From NCBI GenBank assembly GCA_019090615.1, contig JAHRVQ010000032.1, positions 1 to 38,096 of the forward strand: a stretch of DNA of 38,096 nucleotides, written 5' to 3'. The number at the start of each line of letters is the position of its first letter. Within the stretch, counting starts at the first letter, position 1. Shown piece after piece: positions 91 to 36,104 of this stretch. The DNA is from Pseudomonadales bacterium. Lineage in GTDB: Bacteria > Pseudomonadota > Gammaproteobacteria > Pseudomonadales > Azotimanducaceae. The notes under the pieces were generated by a model. The model searched no databases. It was not told the DNA's origin and saw nothing but the letters and a program-made list of their open reading frames with translations. A program made the position numbers and the translations under genes.

Positions 91-197
91 CAGACATACC
101 ATGGTATTTTCAATTGTAATTTCAATTTGATTGCTAGAGATCTGGATACAACTAAAAATACTCTGGTATGTCTGGTATGTCTGGTATGTCTGGTATG
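91..197. repeat. Inverted 9-bp-unit array A (hairpin-capable)
   Basis: The left arm 91-110 and right arm 155-174 are inverted repeats matching at 18 of 20 positions, around a 44-nt loop. The right side continues as a tandem array. Read on the minus strand, the right side is (CATACCAGA) units closed by GTATTTTT; the left arm, read on the plus strand, is CATACCATG closed by GTATTTT. Both arms therefore obey the rule (ATACCAnnN)n then GTATT, pointing inward. Confidence 0.75.
162..197 (+). repeat. Perfect 9-bp tandem repeat, 4 copies of TCTGGTATG
   Basis: Four identical back-to-back copies of TCTGGTATG occupy 162-170, 171-179, 180-188 and 189-197. The corresponding place in the second large repeat (about 650-677) has only degenerate units, so the array has expanded or contracted between copies. 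There are no spacers, so this is not a CRISPR. Confidence 0.9.
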
Positions 198-481
198 TCC
201 TCAGATAATTCCAGTTAATCAGCCCCTTTGGGGCTCGTTGTACACCAAACCCTTTGGGTTCTCTGTAATCGACTTCACTTCGTTCGGGTAGTGCAGAGCC
301 AATAATTTCAGTTGTATCCATAGCCCATATTTTTATTGATTGAATCAATATGGCTAATTCCCAGGTAGGTTCCATTCTTTAGGCTATAGCTATCACTTTG
401 AGGTTGGTGATAGAGGAAAGCAGAGTCCGTCTGAGGTGGAACCATCCAGTCCAGGTGATCTTCTGAGTCTTTCCTGGAGAG

Positions 482-950
482 GTCTCATATCCAATCTGTA
501 CCTGTCACATTAGAACTTGACCAGTGATGAATAAAATCATTTCAGATGAATTCACCTTTAAACTAATCCCACATACCAGACGTACCATGGTATTTTCGAT
601 TGTAATTTCAATTTGATTGCTAGATGTCTGGAATCAGTAAAAATACTCTGGAATGTCTGGTATCGCTGGTATGTCTTCAGAATATCCCCCAATCAATCAG
701 TTCTTTGAATTAGAAGCAAGTTTCACTCCCATGATTTCCTATAGACATAATAGTGTTGTTGGGATGGTTGGAAGTAATACTCAGGATTGTTTTGTTACAA
801 TCCACCTAAAATCCCATGATATTTTTAGATTTCTGATTTAATCAGTTTGATTTAAACCAATTAATCTGGCTAATTCCTGGATGGCTCCCATGGTTTAAGG
901 TGTAGATATCACATTGAAACTAAAATTATTATCAATAAAAACAATAAGGT
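482..950. repeat. About 480-bp direct repeat, copy 2
   Basis: This is the second copy of the 1-481 unit. It keeps the same order of landmarks: GTCTCAT, the AGATGAATTCACC block, the inverted TACCA/TGGTA arms, TGGCTAATTCC, then a TAGATATCAC motif matching TAGCTATCAC in copy 1. A much eroded third start may follow at about 951 (ATCTCAT, then AATCCCACATGCC). Confidence 0.65.
572..677. repeat. Inverted 9-bp-unit array B (hairpin-capable)
   Basis: This is the counterpart of array A in the second 480-bp copy. The left arm 576-596 pairs with 640-660 at 17 of 21 positions. The left side reads CATACCAGA, CGTACCATG, GTATTTT. The right side, read on the minus strand, has units CATACCAGC, GATACCAGA and CATTCCAGA, followed by GTATTTT. 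The number and sequence of units differ from array A, but the 9-bp phase and the GTATTTT boundary are kept. Confidence 0.7.
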
Positions 951-1471: not shown

Positions 1472-2402
1472 CAATTGTCGATTTGACATTCGAATATGAA
1501 ACTTCAGATGAATATCCCGAAATAAACCCCTTAGTATCCTGTTGGAAGTAAAATAAATCCAAATACCCCAACAAATCGAGTAAAGCCATTCCATCACATC
1601 ATAAATACCAGAGCTATTTTTGCTTTTGGCATAAATATCAATGAAAGATGTGGAATTGGGCATGGGACTATTGCTGCCACATAAAAAACAATAGGACTCA
1701 AGGTGTCTGAATTATATAAAATGACCTTGAACAAATCAGACAAACTCTATCATCGCTCGTGTTGGATGAAACAGACGATGAATCATAAGCAATATATTTC
1801 CGATGAGTAGATAACAACTACTGGATCTATACCACCTATGATGAAATTGATTAAAACCATTTATTAAGAGGACGCACGACTTGATCTTCCCATTGATGAC
1901 ATTATTTGATGGGGTATAAGAGCAAGAATAAATCACTAAAGATAAAGCGTGATATGTTGATATAGCAGGGTGGTCTCCTGTACTTCGATCTGTTGGATCT
2001 AGCAATCAGCTAGCCAATTGGTCAGGAGTTACTCAAAAAGGACAGTGGATAATAGTCGATGATAGATTGAGATGGGGATAATATTCCATCGAAGGGATGT
2101 GCATTAGTCGTAGTGGCATATTGATAAGTAATCAGAATATTTCAGGATGATTTGAAAGATTTTGTTTTTTATTGATATCATGCTTACGTCCTCAGCTGTG
2201 CCCCAAATATATTGAACCCATTGAGCTTATCCAGCAATCAAATTGATGGAGATTGCTTTGGAGTTCTTTGATTGGATTTTTGTGCTGATCATACTGACAA
2301 TACTGTGGAATCCCTGATTATAAATCCCTTGCGCTGTTATCTGGTTAGCTACCAACAAAAATACTAAGGTGTATCTGATGCTATTGGATGAGATTGAATG
2401 TC

Positions 2403-2956: not shown

Positions 2957-3331
2957 TTAGCCTTTTTTACCAAGGTTATCCAAATGTTCACGCTTTAATT
3001 TGGCGTAATAGGTGCCAGCACCTGCTTTGGTTAATTTAACTCTATGAGACTGAAATTCCAAAATGATATCTTTTCGAGCTATACCATCCTTACCAAACAT
3101 TTCACTGAACACAATCCTGGCATTATCCATTTTGGTGGGTTCATTTATGGACTTGACGATTAAACCTTCATCCTGAGTCTTGCAATCAACTTCAGAAGAT
3201 TGTGCTGAATCATCGCCTGAAACGGAATCTGAAGGTGTAGAAGCTGGTTTTGAATCTACACTGGATGATTTGTCAGATCCATGAGTGGATTGGAATCTAC
3301 CATTTTTATCACGCTTTGAAAAAATGCTCAT
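2957..3331 (-). CDS. Small hypothetical protein with a C-terminal LTKAGA..YY motif
   Basis: The product is 124 residues. Residues 1-60 are hydrophilic, rich in Ser, Asp and Lys and probably disordered. The C-terminal half (about 70-124) has ARKDIILEF and LTKAGAGTYYAKLKRE, which looks helical and could be a small nucleic-acid-binding fold. From memory, a similar 'T-x-A-G-A-x-T-Y-Y' ending occurs in other uncharacterised gammaproteobacterial proteins; I could not check this. The ATG directly follows the stop of the upstream gene with no gap, and an AAGGTGAT ribosome binding site lies inside that gene's end, so the two are co-translated. It ends with a lysine-rich tail. No function is assigned. 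Confidence 0.6.
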   Translation of the reverse strand: MSIFSKRDKNGRFQSTHGSDKSSSVDSKPASTPSDSVSGDDSAQSSEVDCKTQDEGLIVKSINEPTKMDNARIVFSEMFGKDGIARKDIILEFQSHRVKLTKAGAGTYYAKLKREHLDNLGKKG

Positions 3332-3571
3332 TTATTGATCACCTTTAATGGTTTGTTGGAATTCATCGACTTTGGTCTTAATTGTGATGATCAAATTTTC
3401 AGTTTTTTTAGCAGATAGAGACTCACATCCAGCTGTATTTTCCAGATGCATCCCTATTAACTCAGTGATATCAGTGTCTTCTGAAGTTTGAATATCTTCC
3501 AGAACGAATTGGGTGATTTGGTCGATGTCTTTTGCTGAAATTGGTTGATATTTGATCATGGGGCACACCAT
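3332..3571 (-). CDS. Small acidic hypothetical protein, first gene of a two-gene operon
   Basis: The product is 79 residues, acidic and without membrane segments. Residues 10-40 are strongly acidic (ED, SEDTDITE), and the C-terminal third looks like one amphipathic helix. I do not recognise the family. The ATG at 3571 has a weak AGGG upstream; an in-frame ATG at 3559 (MIKYQP) is an equally possible start. Its stop codon abuts the ATG of the next gene, so the pair probably forms one unit, for example two interacting small proteins. The pair sits between the repeat-rich region and a divergent plus-strand operon. Confidence 0.5.
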   Translation of the reverse strand: MVCPMIKYQPISAKDIDQITQFVLEDIQTSEDTDITELIGMHLENTAGCESLSAKKTENLIITIKTKVDEFQQTIKGDQ

Positions 3572-3883
3572 CGACCCTTTTTTGGTTTAGGACAACGGGT
3601 GAAACTTGGCGGTTTTTTAATAATACTCCGCGAGTTGAGTAACTTGAAAATGGGGGGTATTTTATACCCAAATGATGTAGGCTCTTTCAGCCTAGTATCG
3701 TGGCATATTAGTTTAAGATGTAAGTACCCCTTTGGTCATCTTAGCTTCGTATGGTTTGAGTACTAAAGAATGTATCAGTAGCGAGCGGTATTAAATTGGT
3801 CTCGAAACTAATTTATTTTAGCTGATCATTTGAGCATTTGGTTCTAGCGGATTATTTTTTTGCGCTACAAGAAGGAGTGTTAT
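3572..3883. promoter_or_regulatory. Divergent intergenic region with several hairpins
   Basis: This 312-bp gap separates the minus-strand small-gene pair from the plus-strand lipoprotein operon, so promoters for both must lie here. I see three inverted repeats: GGGTA-TTTTA-TACCC at about 3655-3669, TAGGCT-CTTTC-AGCCTA at 3678-3694, and TAAGATG/CATCTTA at 3714-3743. No convincing -35/-10 pair stands out. A good ribosome binding site, AAGGAG at 3872-3877, decides the lipoprotein start at 3884. A 73-codon frame here has no support and overlaps the hairpins. Confidence 0.45.
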
Positions 3884-6948: not shown

Positions 6949-8538
6949 TCATTTGCCTAATTCATCACCCCCATGATAAATGGCTGACCGCATTGGCGCC
7001 TGGGCAAACTTCTCTTTCCATAATCGCGGCGTGAGGGCTTCAACATTGCTGGCTGGATGCAGGTTAATACGCTGTAGTACATCCACCAGATAAACATAAG
7101 GGTCGATATCCTGTATTTTGCAGGTACTGATCAAGCTCTGGATAATACCCACATGCTCAGCGCCAAGTTCCGTCCAACAAAAGTTCCAGTTCTTGCGCCC
7201 CATCGGGATGGGTCGTAATGCGCGTTCAATATAATTGGTATCCATTGGCACATCAGGGTCTTCCAAAAAAACCTTCAGTTTAGCCTGACGATGCAACATA
7301 TAGCGGACGGCCTTAAGCAGCGGGTTATCCGGCAATAACTCCTTATTGTTCAACTGGTTTTCACACCAGGCAAAGAAGGCATTGACCACGGGCGCACTGT
7401 ATTTCATCCGCCAGTTGCGTTTTTTGTCGCCGGTTAATTGCTTTTGCTTGATCACAGCTTCAATCGCATAAAGTTCTCTGATGTGTTGCAGGGCGGTGGC
7501 GACAAGCGCTGGCTCAACGTCCTCTGCAGTAATAAAATGCCGCCGGCCGTGGACCCAGCACTGCGCATGGATAACGCCTTCCTGCGCCTCGGTATAGCAC
7601 GCATAGGCGACATAACCATCAGAGATTAAGGTGCCCTTAAAGCCCTCCGCCAGTACTTGCTCAATATGCGCTTTGGCGCGACTATTGGCATAGGTGAAGA
7701 CAATTTCACCCTGGTCACCACACACCGGCCAAAACCAGCCCGTTTTCATTTTTCCTTTGCCGGATCGACGGGACTTCACCGGGGTTTCATCCATGGCCAA
7801 CACTTTGCTGCGCAAGATGTTGCGTAATTGCGCTTCGACGATCGGCCTCAGTAGTTCGATACTGCGGCGGGTTAAATTAGTCAGTGTTGCGCGGCTTAGC
7901 GCTATACCCGCTTGCTGTAGTCGTTGATGTTGGCGGTATAAGGGCAAATGATACATAAACTTATCAACCAGCATACCGGCCAGAAAGCTTACATCCGCCA
8001 ATGACTGATCAAACACGCCACCCGGAACCAGAGTGTTGATGACAGCTTTACTGTCTTTACGTTTAATGACTTTGTGGTCATAACGTAAGACCACATAACT
8101 GGCAGGTCGCTGAGCTAATCGATGGACACTTTTGTTGCCAATCACTTCGTATTGATCTGCGTCAGGGCCACTGAGTTCGGGCGAGGCAACTTCAATCACT
8201 TCAACCGGCACTGTTTCATCAAACCGCAGACCACTGTCCGTCACACAATCACTGCCGCGTTTTTTGCTGGCTTTGCCGCGCTGATAAGTAATCGTTTCCA
8301 GTGGCACTGGTGCCGTTTTCGGCGCTTCGCCCAATAGACCATCGAGTAATAACTGGTCAGGGTTTTCATCTGCTAAACGACGTTCTGACTTGCTACCGAA
8401 CATCTGTTTCTGGAACCAGGCCACTTGCCGTTTGAGATTTTCAACCTGGCTTTCCAGCACCTGAACCTGCCCTGCGGTGGCCGCGTTAGCATCTTTCAGT
8501 TCAGCATAACTTGGCTGTTGGTTGGTGTCTTTTGGCAT
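6949..8538 (-). CDS. tnpC: IS66-family transposase TnpC
   Basis: This 529-residue protein is the DDE transposase of the element. An N-terminal coiled-coil-like region (about 10-45) with WFQKQMFGSKSER is typical of the family. It is followed by a zinc-binding/helix region and a catalytic core with LAMDET (Asp250), LISDGY (Asp307) and NYIERALRPI (Glu438). The CWVHGRRHF block after the second Asp is also characteristic. The C-terminal segment (LISTCKIQDIDPYVYL) matches the IS66 C-terminal domain. The stop codon lies inside the left terminal inverted repeat, as is common in compact IS elements. It starts 29 bp after tnpB. Confidence 0.95.
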   Translation of the reverse strand: MPKDTNQQPSYAELKDANAATAGQVQVLESQVENLKRQVAWFQKQMFGSKSERRLADENPDQLLLDGLLGEAPKTAPVPLETITYQRGKASKKRGSDCVTDSGLRFDETVPVEVIEVASPELSGPDADQYEVIGNKSVHRLAQRPASYVVLRYDHKVIKRKDSKAVINTLVPGGVFDQSLADVSFLAGMLVDKFMYHLPLYRQHQRLQQAGIALSRATLTNLTRRSIELLRPIVEAQLRNILRSKVLAMDETPVKSRRSGKGKMKTGWFWPVCGDQGEIVFTYANSRAKAHIEQVLAEGFKGTLISDGYVAYACYTEAQEGVIHAQCWVHGRRHFITAEDVEPALVATALQHIRELYAIEAVIKQKQLTGDKKRNWRMKYSAPVVNAFFAWCENQLNNKELLPDNPLLKAVRYMLHRQAKLKVFLEDPDVPMDTNYIERALRPIPMGRKNWNFCWTELGAEHVGIIQSLISTCKIQDIDPYVYLVDVLQRINLHPASNVEALTPRLWKEKFAQAPMRSAIYHGGDELGK

Positions 8539-8567
8539 GCCGGGATTATAACAAACACTGCCTGTTT

Positions 8568-8909
8568 TTACCGCTTGAATCGCTTATATTGTCGACTATT
8601 TTCAAGGTCAATGCCCTCCAGCAATAGCTTTAATTGCATCCAGTCCAACAGGGTTTTACCGGTCGCATCAGGCTTGAAATTAAACTGCCCCTGGACCAGC
8701 CGTTTACTCCAGATACAATATCCGCTGCGATCAAAATACAGGATTTTAACCTGCGTCTGGCGACGATTAATAAACACAAATAGCTGCCCGCTGAGTGGGT
8801 CCTGCTGGAGTTGATGTTTGGCGAGACCAGAAAGCCCATCATACGACTTTCTCATATCCGTTGGTGTGGTACATAACCAGACTTTGACCTGACCCTCAGG
8901 GAAAAACAT
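8568..8909 (-). CDS. tnpB: IS66 accessory protein TnpB (IS66 Orf2-like)
   Basis: The product is 113 residues. KVWLCTTPTDMRKSYDGL at the start and QLFVFINRRQTQVKILYFDRSGYCIW in the middle (two overlapping conserved blocks) are the hallmark of IS66 Orf2. Family members are needed for efficient transposition of IS66 elements, although their biochemical role is unclear. The ATG overlaps the stop of tnpA (TGATG), so the two are translationally coupled. The length is normal for the family. Confidence 0.95.
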   Translation of the reverse strand: MFFPEGQVKVWLCTTPTDMRKSYDGLSGLAKHQLQQDPLSGQLFVFINRRQTQVKILYFDRSGYCIWSKRLVQGQFNFKPDATGKTLLDWMQLKLLLEGIDLENSRQYKRFKR

Positions 8910-9187
8910 CAGGCTTGTTTCAGATTGAGTTTAATACCGTCACCCAAATCAAGCTCGATATGCCAGCGCACGGATGGATCAATGGCAACCACGCTGGTGA
9001 TATCAATCATGTTGACAGCTTCTGGCGTCGCGGATACTTCAAGCCGCTTGCGCCATCGATAGAAACTTTGATACCGAATCCCTTGTTGCTCGCAAAAAGT
9101 ACTTACAGGCAAGTTTGAATCTGCTTGCTGGTCAATGATTTTTTGCCAGTCTGCTTCGGATCGATATAGCCGGGTTTGTGGTTTCAT
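8909..9187 (-). CDS. tnpA: IS66 accessory protein TnpA (IS3/IS66 Orf1-like HTH)
   Basis: I place the start at the ATG at 9187 (MKPQTRLYR), which has GAGGAG 7 nt upstream, rather than nine codons earlier. The 92-residue product has a helix-turn-helix-like segment, VSTFCEQQGIRYQSFYRWRK, at about residues 28-47, typical of IS66 TnpA proteins. It probably contacts the element's ends. Its last codon overlaps the ATG of tnpB. Confidence 0.9.
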   Translation of the reverse strand: MKPQTRLYRSEADWQKIIDQQADSNLPVSTFCEQQGIRYQSFYRWRKRLEVSATPEAVNMIDITSVVAIDPSVRWHIELDLGDGIKLNLKQA

Positions 9188-9266
9188 AAATGCGCTCCTC
9201 AATGTGAAACGCAAAGATACTGATAAATTATGTTACGGGGTAGAACGGTGCGGAATGAGCGCTAAC

Positions 9267-9274: not shown

Positions 9275-9677
9275 GCATTGAAGTAATTTGTCTCAGAGAA
9301 CATACCAGAGATACCACAGTATTTCAGACTAATAAATCAAAAGAAGAAGATCCCTTCACATTTCAAACAGAAAATAACACAGTATCATCAATATTCGCCC
9401 AAAAGCCGCCATTAAAAGGTAGAGATGTTAACGCCACCCAAATACTGCGGTTATTTGCCGCTGAGTTTAATGCGGGCTGTAGGTCATTAAGAATAGTCAT
9501 TATAAACCACATTTTCTGAAGAACGGTCAAGTATCACAATTGTAGATGTTCGTTGAAATTTTGGACACCGTGACGTGGTGATCCTTTTGATGGTCAATGA
9601 CTGTCATGCTGCTAATCTGCAGGCTTACAGACTGTTGGGCTGATTGCTTAGTCTCTCTCAACAAGTGGCGACCGTGA
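9275..9677. other. Intergenic sequence right of the IS66 element
   Basis: I see no gene here. The stretch contains a 9-bp-unit array at 9301-9327 and a related short palindromic segment at 9440-9456 (AAATACTGCGG then TTATTT). The remainder, including an ACACCGTGACGTGGTG palindromic patch near 9566, has no feature I can name. Confidence 0.5.
9301..9327 (+). repeat. 9-bp-unit array E
   Basis: CATACCAGA, GATACCACA and GTATTTCAG lie in 9-bp phase, following the same rule as arrays A-D at the left end. A possible inverted partner is 9440-9456, which on the minus strand reads AAATAACCGCAGTATTT. Before the IS inserted, this array lay about 35 bp after the transferase stop codon. Confidence 0.65.
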
Positions 9678-9839
9678 TATAACAGACTTGTCATAGGCGT
9701 TAAATATATCTTTGGGCATCAAAGCAAATACGGTGCTTGGGATTCTTGGCCTTTACTCGCAGAAGATATGGAACGTTTGAAAGCGTTGTGTGATGAAGCA
9801 ATTGAAGATCAAAACCAAGTGGATCTTAAAAATGAGTAG
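9678..9839 (+). pseudogene. C-terminal remnant of a small protein gene
   Basis: An open frame with protein-like composition runs from after a TGA at 9675 to a TAG at 9837. It includes SKYGAWDSWPLLAEDMERLK and ends DQNQVDLKNE, and has no suitable start codon before ATG 9768. The end overlaps the ATG of the next gene by 8 bp, as genuine neighbours often do. I read it as the tail of a gene whose 5' part was lost or broken. The family is not recognised. Confidence 0.35.
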
Positions 9840-10128
9840 TGACTTTGAGAAGGGATTACATATCTATGGCAATGAACCAGGGGAAGGTGCACTCGGCTGG
9901 CAAGACCATAGTGTGAGCGAGTTCGAGGGATGCTGGCGAATGCACGGTTGGGCGGCAGCTAAAGAAGAGGCTATCGCCTACGCTAAACAAGGAATAGACC
10001 ACAGGATCATCAACACCCCAGGTGAGGGTCCTGATGATGAAATTGATACATGGTACGTTATCACTGAGAACAATGTTAGTTGGAGTACGTGGGCATCGTA
10101 TACTGGATACAAAACTAGAGGAAAATAA
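9832..10128 (+). CDS. Small hypothetical protein, unknown family
   Basis: From ATG 9832 the product is 98 residues, acidic and Trp-rich, soluble, with no signal peptide. Sequence features are GEGALGWQDHSVSEFEGCW at the front, a helical AAAKEEAIAYAKQG segment, and DDEIDTWYVITENN near the end. In-frame starts upstream (9793, 9790) would make it 13-14 residues longer but fall inside the preceding frame. The ribosome binding site is weak. It overlaps the remnant upstream by 8 bp. I do not recognise it; composition and overlap make it more likely real than not. Confidence 0.55.
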   Translation: MSSDFEKGLHIYGNEPGEGALGWQDHSVSEFEGCWRMHGWAAAKEEAIAYAKQGIDHRIINTPGEGPDDEIDTWYVITENNVSWSTWASYTGYKTRGK

Positions 10129-10174
10129 AATGGCAAGACATAACGGACAAGAAGCATAACGATATTCAAAAAAG

Positions 10175-10199
10175 AAATACCGCAGTATCCGTAGTATTT
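10175..10199. repeat. 9-bp-unit array F, nearest the tRNA
   Basis: AAATACCGC, AGTATCCGT and AGTATTT are in 9-bp phase. The outer six bases (AAATAC/GTATTT) are an inverted repeat. It is a diverged relative of arrays A-E and the last copy I see before the chromosomal genes. Confidence 0.5.
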
Positions 10200-10399
10200 C
10201 CCATAATAAGACTATGTAGAGATTCCGTAACGCTCGTCAATTTTTTCCAAACGCAGGCTACGTGGTTCTTACGGTGGGCCATGGGATAATTACGACTTTT
10301 TTCACCTGAGTAAATAGCGCTGAGAGGTTTTTATACTTGGATGGAGCTCTCGCAATTTTCCGTTGGAAAATGCTGCCGCCACTATTTCTGCGGGGTCTC

Positions 10400-10431
10400 T
10401 TTTGTGTTTTCGCGAAGCGAAAGCCACAAAA
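10400..10431 (-). terminator. Hairpin directly after tRNA-Phe, possible terminator
   Basis: On the minus strand, starting 1 nt after the CCA end, TTTTGTG pairs with CACAAAA, and inside it TTTCGC pairs with GCGAAA around TTC. The stem is long but there is no clear run of T after it, so it may act in 3' processing or termination of the tRNA transcript rather than as a standard intrinsic terminator. Confidence 0.45.
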
Positions 10432-10432
10432 T

Positions 10433-10508
10433 TGGTGGCCAGAGGTGGAATCGAACCACCGACACGGGGATTTTCAGTCCCCTGCTCTACCGACTGAGCT
10501 ATCTGGCC
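10433..10508 (-). tRNA. tRNA-Phe (anticodon GAA)
   Basis: The 76-nt gene folds as a normal cloverleaf. The acceptor stem is GGCCAGA/TCTGGCC with discriminator A and encoded CCA. The D-arm is AGCTCAGTCGGTAGAGC, the anticodon loop CTGAAAA in a GGGGA/TCCCC stem, and the T-arm GTTCGATTC. The anticodon GAA reads Phe codons. Overall it resembles the E. coli tRNA-Phe closely. The 3' end points to the accessory block, the usual side for island integration. Confidence 0.97.
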
Positions 10509-23091: not shown

Positions 23092-23703
23092 TCTACTAGT
23101 CTGCCACTGGATGCCAATTGCAGTGGATTGTCTGTTTATTAATCAATGGCTTGCCTGCGGTTTGAAGGACTGCTCACGCAGTAATTTATTAACGGGATTG
23201 ATAGTAAGGTATTATGCGTCATGCAATCCAGTCCGGCGAGGCCAATTGCATTTAGAAATTAGCGTGACGGCTATCTTTGAGTTACTTTGGGTTTTATCTG
23301 GCGTTTTATCTACTGCGCCAAATACGCGGTTGAGGATTTAGAAAAAGCGGCGTAAGGCAGCATAAGATGATAGTCTCACCAGGATGGTTTTTTTGAATAG
23401 CTGTTTTTTGAATAGTTGTTTGTTTGAATAAATTGTTTGTTGATAGCTAATGCTTCACCAGCGAAGTGTTAGAGAAATTAATTGAGCGATTATGATGCCG
23501 GCATTCTTTTGCAGAGACAGTGTTTTGCAGAGATAGTGTTTTGCAGACATAGTGTTTTGGAGCAAGTACGATCTGTGAAACGCATAGTTCTTTGCAATGC
23601 ATAGTGCTTTGCAATGCATAGTGCTTTGCAATGCATGGTTCGTTGCAAACGGTGAATGGGTACTGAAATGGTGGTGAAATGATAAAGCAGGAGCGCAAGA
23701 TCG
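23092..23703. promoter_or_regulatory. Divergent intergenic region with a repeat array
   Basis: This 612-bp gap lies between the divergent translocase-like and NADP-reductase genes. A 76-codon frame at 23111-23341 has no start signal or motif, and I leave it out. The right third is an array of 16- and 17-bp repeats (23507-23650). AGGAG at 23689-23693 supports the reductase start at 23704. I do not see a confident -35/-10 pair. Confidence 0.5.
23507..23650 (+). repeat. Array of 16-bp and 17-bp direct repeats upstream of the NADP reductase
   Basis: Three copies of TTTTGCAGAGATAGTG-type units (16 bp: 23507, 23523, 23539) are followed by a degraded stretch, then by four copies of GCATAGTGCTTTGCAAT-type units (17 bp: 23582, 23599, 23616, 23633). 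Both classes share ATAGTG-n-TTTGCA, so they are one family in shifted phase. The second class contains the palindromic TTGCAATGCA. The array ends about 54 bp before the reductase start, where a regulator or a slippage-prone leader would be expected. Confidence 0.8.
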
Positions 23704-35991: not shown

Positions 35992-36050
35992 TAGGTGTCT
36001 TAGGTAAAAGGTCTTGCAGGATGCAAGAGCGGCAATGTGCTGCCGATGAA

Positions 36051-36104
36051 GGAAAAGTAGGAAAAGTAGGAAAAGTAGGAAAAGTAGGAAAAGTAGGAAA
36101 TGCA
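36051..36104 (+). repeat. 9-bp tandem repeat, 5 perfect copies plus one degenerate
   Basis: Five perfect copies of GGAAAAGTA (36051-36095) are followed by GGAAATGCA. On the coding strand of the downstream kinase it reads TACTTTTCC. Slippage here would shift spacing in the kinase 5' region by nine-base steps. Confidence 0.92.

Follow-up and report, generated by a model that had tools for sequence, protein, structure and literature searches.

The window, the whole stretch of 38,096 nucleotides that was analysed and an entire contig (C28) of its own genome (G000), carries repeated arrays of short phased units, and the question raised by this locus is what these arrays are and what recognises them. 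The original prediction described rows of 9-bp ATACCAnnN units, closed by GTATT and facing each other 45-50 nt apart, and it considered iteron-like protein binding, ends recognised by a recombinase, and a hairpin or hairpin-processing nuclease. Five complete double arrays and two damaged copies are present in the window. A double array comprises ATACC-type units in 9-bp phase, a GTATTT closure and a mirror-image array across 45-47 bp, with the consensus [ATACCnnnn]n-ATACCnnnGTATTT, spacer, AAATACnnnGGTAT-[nnnnGGTAT]n. The copies are given here with their scores against the sequence profile R1, which is described below; a strand is assigned to the last one only.

87-199: double array A (60.0 bits, at 89-179)
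573-677: double array B, with degenerate units (56.2 bits, at 572-663)
1245-1335: double array C, two units per arm (66.4 bits)
1443-1538: decayed array, only the left arm clear (22.8 bits; 17/22 core positions)
2615-2706: double array D, two units per arm (64.3 bits)
9301-9393: double array E, between the R-end and an IS66 element (52.9 bits)
10153-10197, minus strand: single-armed half array F, part of the end module downstream of tRNA-Phe (21.1 bits)

The left arm of array A (87-109) ends in ATACCATGGTATTT, and its right arm (156-196), separated from the left by a 46-bp spacer, consists of AAATACTCTGGTAT followed by three further GGTAT units, four in total. Array B, with a left arm at 573-595 and a right arm at 641-672, has the same layout. 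The double array is a real feature of the sequence: Tandem Repeats Finder (TRF) reports 4.2 copies of period 9 with a 100% match at 162-199 in array A, the string GGTATN4GGTAT occurs 8 times on both strands of the window compared with a mean of 0.06 and a maximum of 1 in 200 dinucleotide-preserving shuffles, and the two-arm pattern occurs 6 times on both strands compared with 0 in such shuffles. The predicted 9-bp phase is strict, while the unit itself is to be read as ATACCnnnn, usually with G or C before it, and not as ATACCAnnN. The boundary is fixed, as was proposed, with the correction that it is usually GTATTT, which is itself an inverted half-unit. The number of units varies from 1 to 4 per arm in the better preserved copies, defined by at least 18/22 core positions (25 of the 30 intervals examined, five being left out), with phase and boundary kept. 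In 24 of these 25 copies the arms are 45-47 bp apart, the exception being that of G020 with 53 bp, and the distance between arm centres calculated from the spacer is about 61-62 bp, near six helix turns. The sequence of the spacer, or loop, is poorly conserved among copies, and the fixed spacing and phase despite these diverged loops suggest a constraint. Short direct repeats in fixed phase and variable number are what characterises iteron-type sites. The first 2,950 bases of the window, in which the longest open reading frame spans 100 amino acids, have a G+C content of 36%, compared with 48% beyond the tRNA-Phe gene.

The distribution of the arrays was determined with R1, a profile trained on 15 copies, of which the window supplied five, contig C29 of the same genome one and other genomes nine, and the high scores of the five complete window arrays (52.9-66.4 bits) are therefore expected. 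Copies outside the training set were found in G893, G885, G808 and G914, five times in NORP299 and, weakly, twice in C29. Matches at E<=0.01 occur in 11 of the 206 genomes of the host's family, and matches of at least 25 bits in 10 of the 206, a count from which a 17.8-bit match in G906 was left out. None of the approximately 372 genomes outside the family in the order sample (390 genomes; the count was made on a listing of what is apparently this same sample) reaches 25 bits, the best scoring 21.0 bits. Both scans used the stricter filters of Infernal, with at most 20 (family) and 10 (order) first-look candidates scored per genome, so weak copies may be missed. A pattern scan of genome contigs gave 19 stretches, six of which were judged real by extra phased units; they come from five metagenome-assembled genomes (MAGs) titled Gammaproteobacteria, Pseudomonadales or Proteobacteria, all five of which recur in the family scan. 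The other 13 stretches, and the exact-pattern hits L011, L013-L016, L021-L023, L025, L028, L029, L032 and L033, were dropped by eye because they lack further phased units. The arrays are thus restricted to one lineage in the genomes searched. The enrichment in islands that was to be checked was borne out within this one family (10/206 genomes, 0/~372 outside), and a genome-wide background frequency, which was to count against the arrays, was not what was found. They stand in tandem clusters, upstream of a small gene pair or a recombinase gene, at cassette ends, or alone; many contigs are short MAG pieces ending in or near repeats, and for this reason the absence of a neighbour is weak evidence. 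One array query had no match in plasmids and another had none in phages, and no published description of such arrays was found, as judged by title and abstract.

Since the two arms are mirror images, the arrays could be read as a hairpin of RNA or single-stranded DNA that is recognised by its structure, in the manner of attC or of a structured RNA. Complementarity between the two arms is 83-90% in A, in B and in the G020 copy, which is what this reading expects, but the same motif on both arms provides such pairing for free. The variable positions are more informative. At six variable spacer positions in the 15 copies, 55 cells are paired compared with a mean of 56.1 for shuffled partners, and Watson-Crick pairs number 35 compared with 37.5; a selected hairpin is unsupported because these positions pair no better than shuffled ones. 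One further position, beside the core, is the exception: it pairs in 14 of the 15 copies with changes on both sides, a pattern that is allowed by both the hairpin and the binding-motif readings and that counts against the explanation preferred below. At the Rfam gathering thresholds no family other than tRNA was found, and at a relaxed threshold two microRNA models appeared far below their own cut-offs. Given that ATACC/GGTAT is conserved and that the variable spacer positions show no co-variation, the fold-back is most probably due to a single binding motif in inverted orientation rather than to a selected hairpin, and both the hairpin and the hairpin-processing nuclease of the original prediction are disfavoured to the point of being very improbable. 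This case also illustrates that co-variation can tell a fold-back repeat from a true hairpin.

The strict phase, fixed arm distance, variable unit number and free spacers argue, from sequence, for the iteron-like protein binding that had been proposed. Among the published systems considered, BldC shows the nearest behaviour, with RdfS as a further precedent, and for this reason a regulator or excision factor that binds head to tail is favoured here. In Streptomyces, BldC occupies direct repeats that vary in number, with 9 bp bound per subunit (PMC5859096), and RdfS, an Xis-type recombination directionality factor, forms head-to-tail filaments and binds attP as well as its own promoter (PMC11963761). 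By analogy, the arrays may be a variant of such iteron-type sites. The differences are also clear: BldC sites have the sequence AATTnnnn(C) and serve a host regulator without a link to cassettes, a consensus motif is lacking in RdfS sites, and the accessible parts of the two papers describe neither a mirrored second arm nor a closing inverted unit (PMC5859096; PMC11963761). Our leading interpretation, held tentatively and at somewhat less than even odds, is that the arrays are iterons bound by a small head-to-tail DNA-binding island regulator or excision factor of this kind. The double-stranded arrays would then be protein-binding sites of genomic islands that are built from tRNA-Phe integrative cassettes in one gammaproteobacterial family. 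Each arm would present a head-to-tail row of 9-bp half-sites with one inverted closing half-site, and a small oligomerising protein encoded by the island, working like BldC, Xis or RdfS, would load on both arms. The resulting complex would control promoters in the vicinity; for arrays located in a cassette end, it would also govern excision or integration at that end. If the arrays are the sites of a shared island protein, they mark DNA that moves or is expressed under common control, and would provide a concrete and searchable signature of it.

The link with tRNA-Phe is visible in the window itself, where half array F belongs to the following module.

10433-10508, minus strand: tRNA-Phe(GAA), the 3' half of which is the repeated attachment sequence of the cassettes
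10210-10308, minus strand: m97, a conserved segment of about 97 bp between tRNA-Phe and the array

The order at such ends is tRNA-Phe, or a fragment of it starting at the anticodon loop, then m97, and often then an array, which lies 171-285 bp downstream of the tRNA-Phe 3' end in the seven modules measured. The opposite end, termed the P arm, carries two motifs 89-90 bp apart in all seven sites that hold both (three of the seven are orthologs), and reversed controls gave no hit in the 24 sequences searched. Of the 10 sites of the outer P-arm motif, 2 (L078 and C29 14915) have an array about 30 bp further in. Tandem copies of tRNA-Phe are found in L042 and C29. These positions suit a different explanation, in which a tyrosine integrase cutting in the tRNA-Phe anticodon loop would use the arrays as arm-type sites, its N-terminal domain binding the 9-bp repeats at cassette ends; an array 113 bp upstream of a recombinase gene also agrees with it. 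An array at every end would be expected, but of the 18 m97 sites counted (orthologs and near copies such as L085/L086 and L173/L174 are included, so they are not independent, and one was read by eye) 9 carry an array, two of these one arm only (window, L082), and 9 do not. Erosion of some copies is possible. R1 found nothing in the loci of eight of the array-less sites and no match near the ninth (C29 18470); five further m97 matches, three in C29 (weak or partial) and two, both weak, in L168 and L171, were left out of the count. The array-less ends weigh against the regulator reading as well. Moreover, the array clusters of the window and of NORP299 contig C160 show no P arm, and no integrase was found beside these cassette ends. 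Binding by the integrase itself is hence an unlikely explanation of the arrays, and yet it leads the alternatives, followed in order by operators without a recombination role, IS91 passengers and the hairpin. As some copies do lie just inside the ends of integrative cassettes, there may be some truth in the earlier suggestion of ends recognised by a recombinase. Scans of viral contigs for the array, P-arm and m97 patterns, bearing on a possible viral helper, gave 0-2 stretches each, none convincing, and one of them (L196) is apparently coding sequence without the core.

The clearest cassette was found in G907, for which a relative without the insert is available. In G912 (genus g22), genes that by eye are glutaredoxin-like and hydantoinase-like lie about 200 bp apart; homology of the G907 locus (L085) to this region ends at 8127 and resumes at 10405. 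The insert is bounded by GGGGATTTTCAATC at 8217-8230 and 10387-10400, a 14-bp repeat that matches the tRNA-Phe anticodon stem-loop and is absent from the G912 locus, and it measures 2,184 bp including both repeats. A P arm lies inside one end, and the 3' half of tRNA-Phe, m97 and an array (9979-10070) lie inside the other. About 105 bp of G912 are unaligned at the insertion site, so that the exact target is not readable base by base. The same insert is present in G908 and in part in G914, and counts as one insertion event. Among the five PF00589 (integrase) matches listed for G907 at E<=1e-5, none is on the cassette contig C93. With its end repeats, a relative lacking the insert and no integrase found, this is probably a tRNA-gene integrative cassette of the CIME-like kind, in which the 14-bp core is repeated and the tRNA 3' half stands at one end only. 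CIMEs (cis-mobilizable elements) and tandem tRNA islands likewise keep attL and attR after loss of their integration genes and accrete in tandem at the target gene, as far as the available part of the source goes (PMC5704250), and attachment at the anticodon loop is a known class in the portion seen of another report (PMC4383910). The present elements differ in that one cassette sits at a non-tRNA site and in that their ends carry m97 and often arrays. Judging by the G907 case, an element as small as about 2 kb and devoid of an integrase may be able to use the tRNA anticodon-loop core even outside a tRNA gene, and island finders that require an integrase gene would miss elements of this type. 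The G907 cassette encodes a 319-aa protein that by eye resembles a shortened Rho factor (L038:2885-3844; same locus in L085).

Further cassettes, carrying MgtC (G809), an ABC-F-like gene (G808) and RND efflux genes (G893), we infer from the tRNA-Phe fragments on either side. Integron cassette arrays are likewise tandem series of small cassettes with toxin-antitoxin cargo and imperfect inverted repeats. A bolder reading, which we regard as improbable, would take the cassette ends (anticodon-loop core, P arm, m97 and double array) as an integron-like system without a local integrase, in which small cassettes with MgtC, an ABC-F-like ATPase, RND efflux with a two-component system, toxin-antitoxin or Rho-like cargo stack in tandem or jump to secondary sites, and in which the array is the switch by which a shared island protein releases or silences them. 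Unlike at integron attC sites, the arms do not co-vary and the core is a tRNA anticodon loop; no attC boxes were recognised by eye. Gammaproteobacterial integrative elements with a small auxiliary protein have been described (PMC10214605); no intA-tfp-intB-srap operon was noticed on reading the present loci. In contig C29 (L030:6145-9182), toxin-antitoxin-like gene pairs lie among tRNA-Phe remnants; one HigB-like toxin is confirmed by Pfam and the rest are assigned by eye.

Some array modules share sequence with IS91-like elements, as is seen next to array E.

9490-9651, minus strand: R-end, a conserved segment of about 160 bp shared with an IS91-like element, with a promoter-like end read by eye

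Further copies of the R-end stand at the right end of the G001 IS91-like element and in G885, and C29 has four, whole or partial. R-end and m97 flank an array in C29 and L081, and likewise in the window, although a gene intervenes there. In C29 and G885 nothing but the array separates m97 from the R-end, and these modules could therefore be non-autonomous derivatives of IS91-like elements. This raises the explanation that a non-autonomous IS91-like (HUH) element carries the arrays along as passenger repeats, which would then do nothing for the island. Some array modules do share both ends with an element that has Y2_Tnp and Zn_Tnp_IS91 domains, the array of C29 and G885 standing between sequences shared with the left part (second half of m97) and the right end of an IS91-like element. 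In addition, six of the nine array-less m97 sites (five aligned, one by eye; one ORF domain-tested, L169) continue into IS91-like sequence. These six transposase-type sites lack an array, however, and a location outside IS91-like ends is common among the arrays: the clusters beside the gene pair resemble neither of the two ends, and no R-end match was found in clusters or in L042, L082, L085, L086 and L079. The spacing and phase held fixed across copies with diverged loops also suggest a constraint, and the passenger explanation is accordingly doubtful. The R-end terminates in an outward promoter-like sequence (TTGACC, TTTATA, by eye), which could drive whatever gene lands beside it. The IS66-type element beside array E (6949-9214) has two ORFs that match IS66 families, and a related fragment occurs in C29 (14155-14838).

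The original prediction also proposed a check for adjacency to a gene pair (2957-3571), and in the window array D is 251 bp from it.

2957-3331, minus strand: p124, a small protein (NORP299 homolog 62% over 123 aa, tblastn)
3332-3559, minus strand: p75, a small protein directly upstream of p124 (NORP299 homolog 49%)
1649-2211, minus strand: conserved segment with no long ORFs (65% over 571 columns with the NORP299 cluster)

NORP299 belongs to the same genus as the window's host. Read on its minus strand, the window has p75, p124 and an array cluster in the same order as NORP299 contig C160, with other genes, including an Mrr-type endonuclease, between pair and cluster in C160; the pair region corresponds to C160 3173-3740 (65%) and the segment at 1649-2211 to C160 7246-7738. 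Seven arrays lie between 6203 and 9618 of C160, followed at 9731 by the tyrosine recombinase gene mentioned above. A further NORP299 array lies 66 bp upstream of p75, and on a second contig (C150) an array precedes a p75 head that is truncated at about codon 22, with AbiEi- and AbiEii-like genes beyond it. It could thus be argued that a single island regulator, for which p75 or p124 might be considered, uses the arrays as operators, and that these have been copied around the island without taking part in recombination. All three family genomes with the pair (G000, G004 and G893, of 206) have arrays (hypergeometric 8e-5, a value inflated since two of the three share a genus), and in G893 the pair is on a contig without an array. 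On the other side, the pair was not found in the remaining 7 of the 10 array genomes and so, unless missed, cannot bind the arrays there, an absence that also counts against the regulator reading preferred here. Furthermore, the 400 bp upstream of p75 in the window are free of arrays, and the clusters of 5 and 7 arrays stand in DNA where ORFs reach about 100 aa at most. Operators alone are consequently a rather unlikely account. The adjacency in question was seen at 251 bp in the window and 66 bp in NORP299, both in one genus, and does not extend to a general partnership (3/206).

As for the protein that would load on the arrays under the preferred regulator reading, p124 is a weak candidate. 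Its model has a confident three-helix C-terminal domain (mean pLDDT 88-92, residues 71-120) and a low-confidence N-terminal part. The sequence has no match in Pfam (E<=0.1), PHROGs (E<=0.1) or PDB (E<=1), none was found in plasmids, and a Foldseek search of the fold returned nothing significant (best E 2.2); among phages, the NORP299 homolog matches one Vibrio phage protein that has the C-terminal part in common. With p124 in 2 of the 369 genomes of the class sample and 3 of the 206 of the family, and with no significant fold match, it was rejected as a universal binder. An integrase beyond position 1 of the window, predicted from synteny with NORP299, is likewise unsupported: no homolog was found in G000 at E<=1e-6, in an assembly that is 97.5% complete and in which the contig ends at this position. 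The 12 other genomes with a match to the NORP299 recombinase hold weak relatives only, several with stops, and six loci of these relatives (2.4-3.4 kb each) contain no array, P arm, tRNA half or m97.

Several smaller features accompany the gene pair and the clusters. The leader and start of p75 recur truncated and joined to unrelated DNA (L030:1406-1461, L077 from ~930, window 3549-3602), in one NORP299 case to an AbiE-like system, which suggests a repeated breakpoint just inside p75. Elsewhere in the window, TRF reports a perfect tandem array of 5.7 copies of the 9-bp unit AGGAAAAGT at 36050-36100 and three tandem arrays of 15-17 bp units at 23389-23648. A small multi-hairpin motif at 218-287 (minus strand), which may be a small RNA or a terminator pair, occurs twice in the NORP299 cluster (L076:8555-8625 and 9110-9165) at 76-80%, and by eye its stem changes on both sides, from AGCCCC/GGGGCT to AGTCCT/AGGACT.
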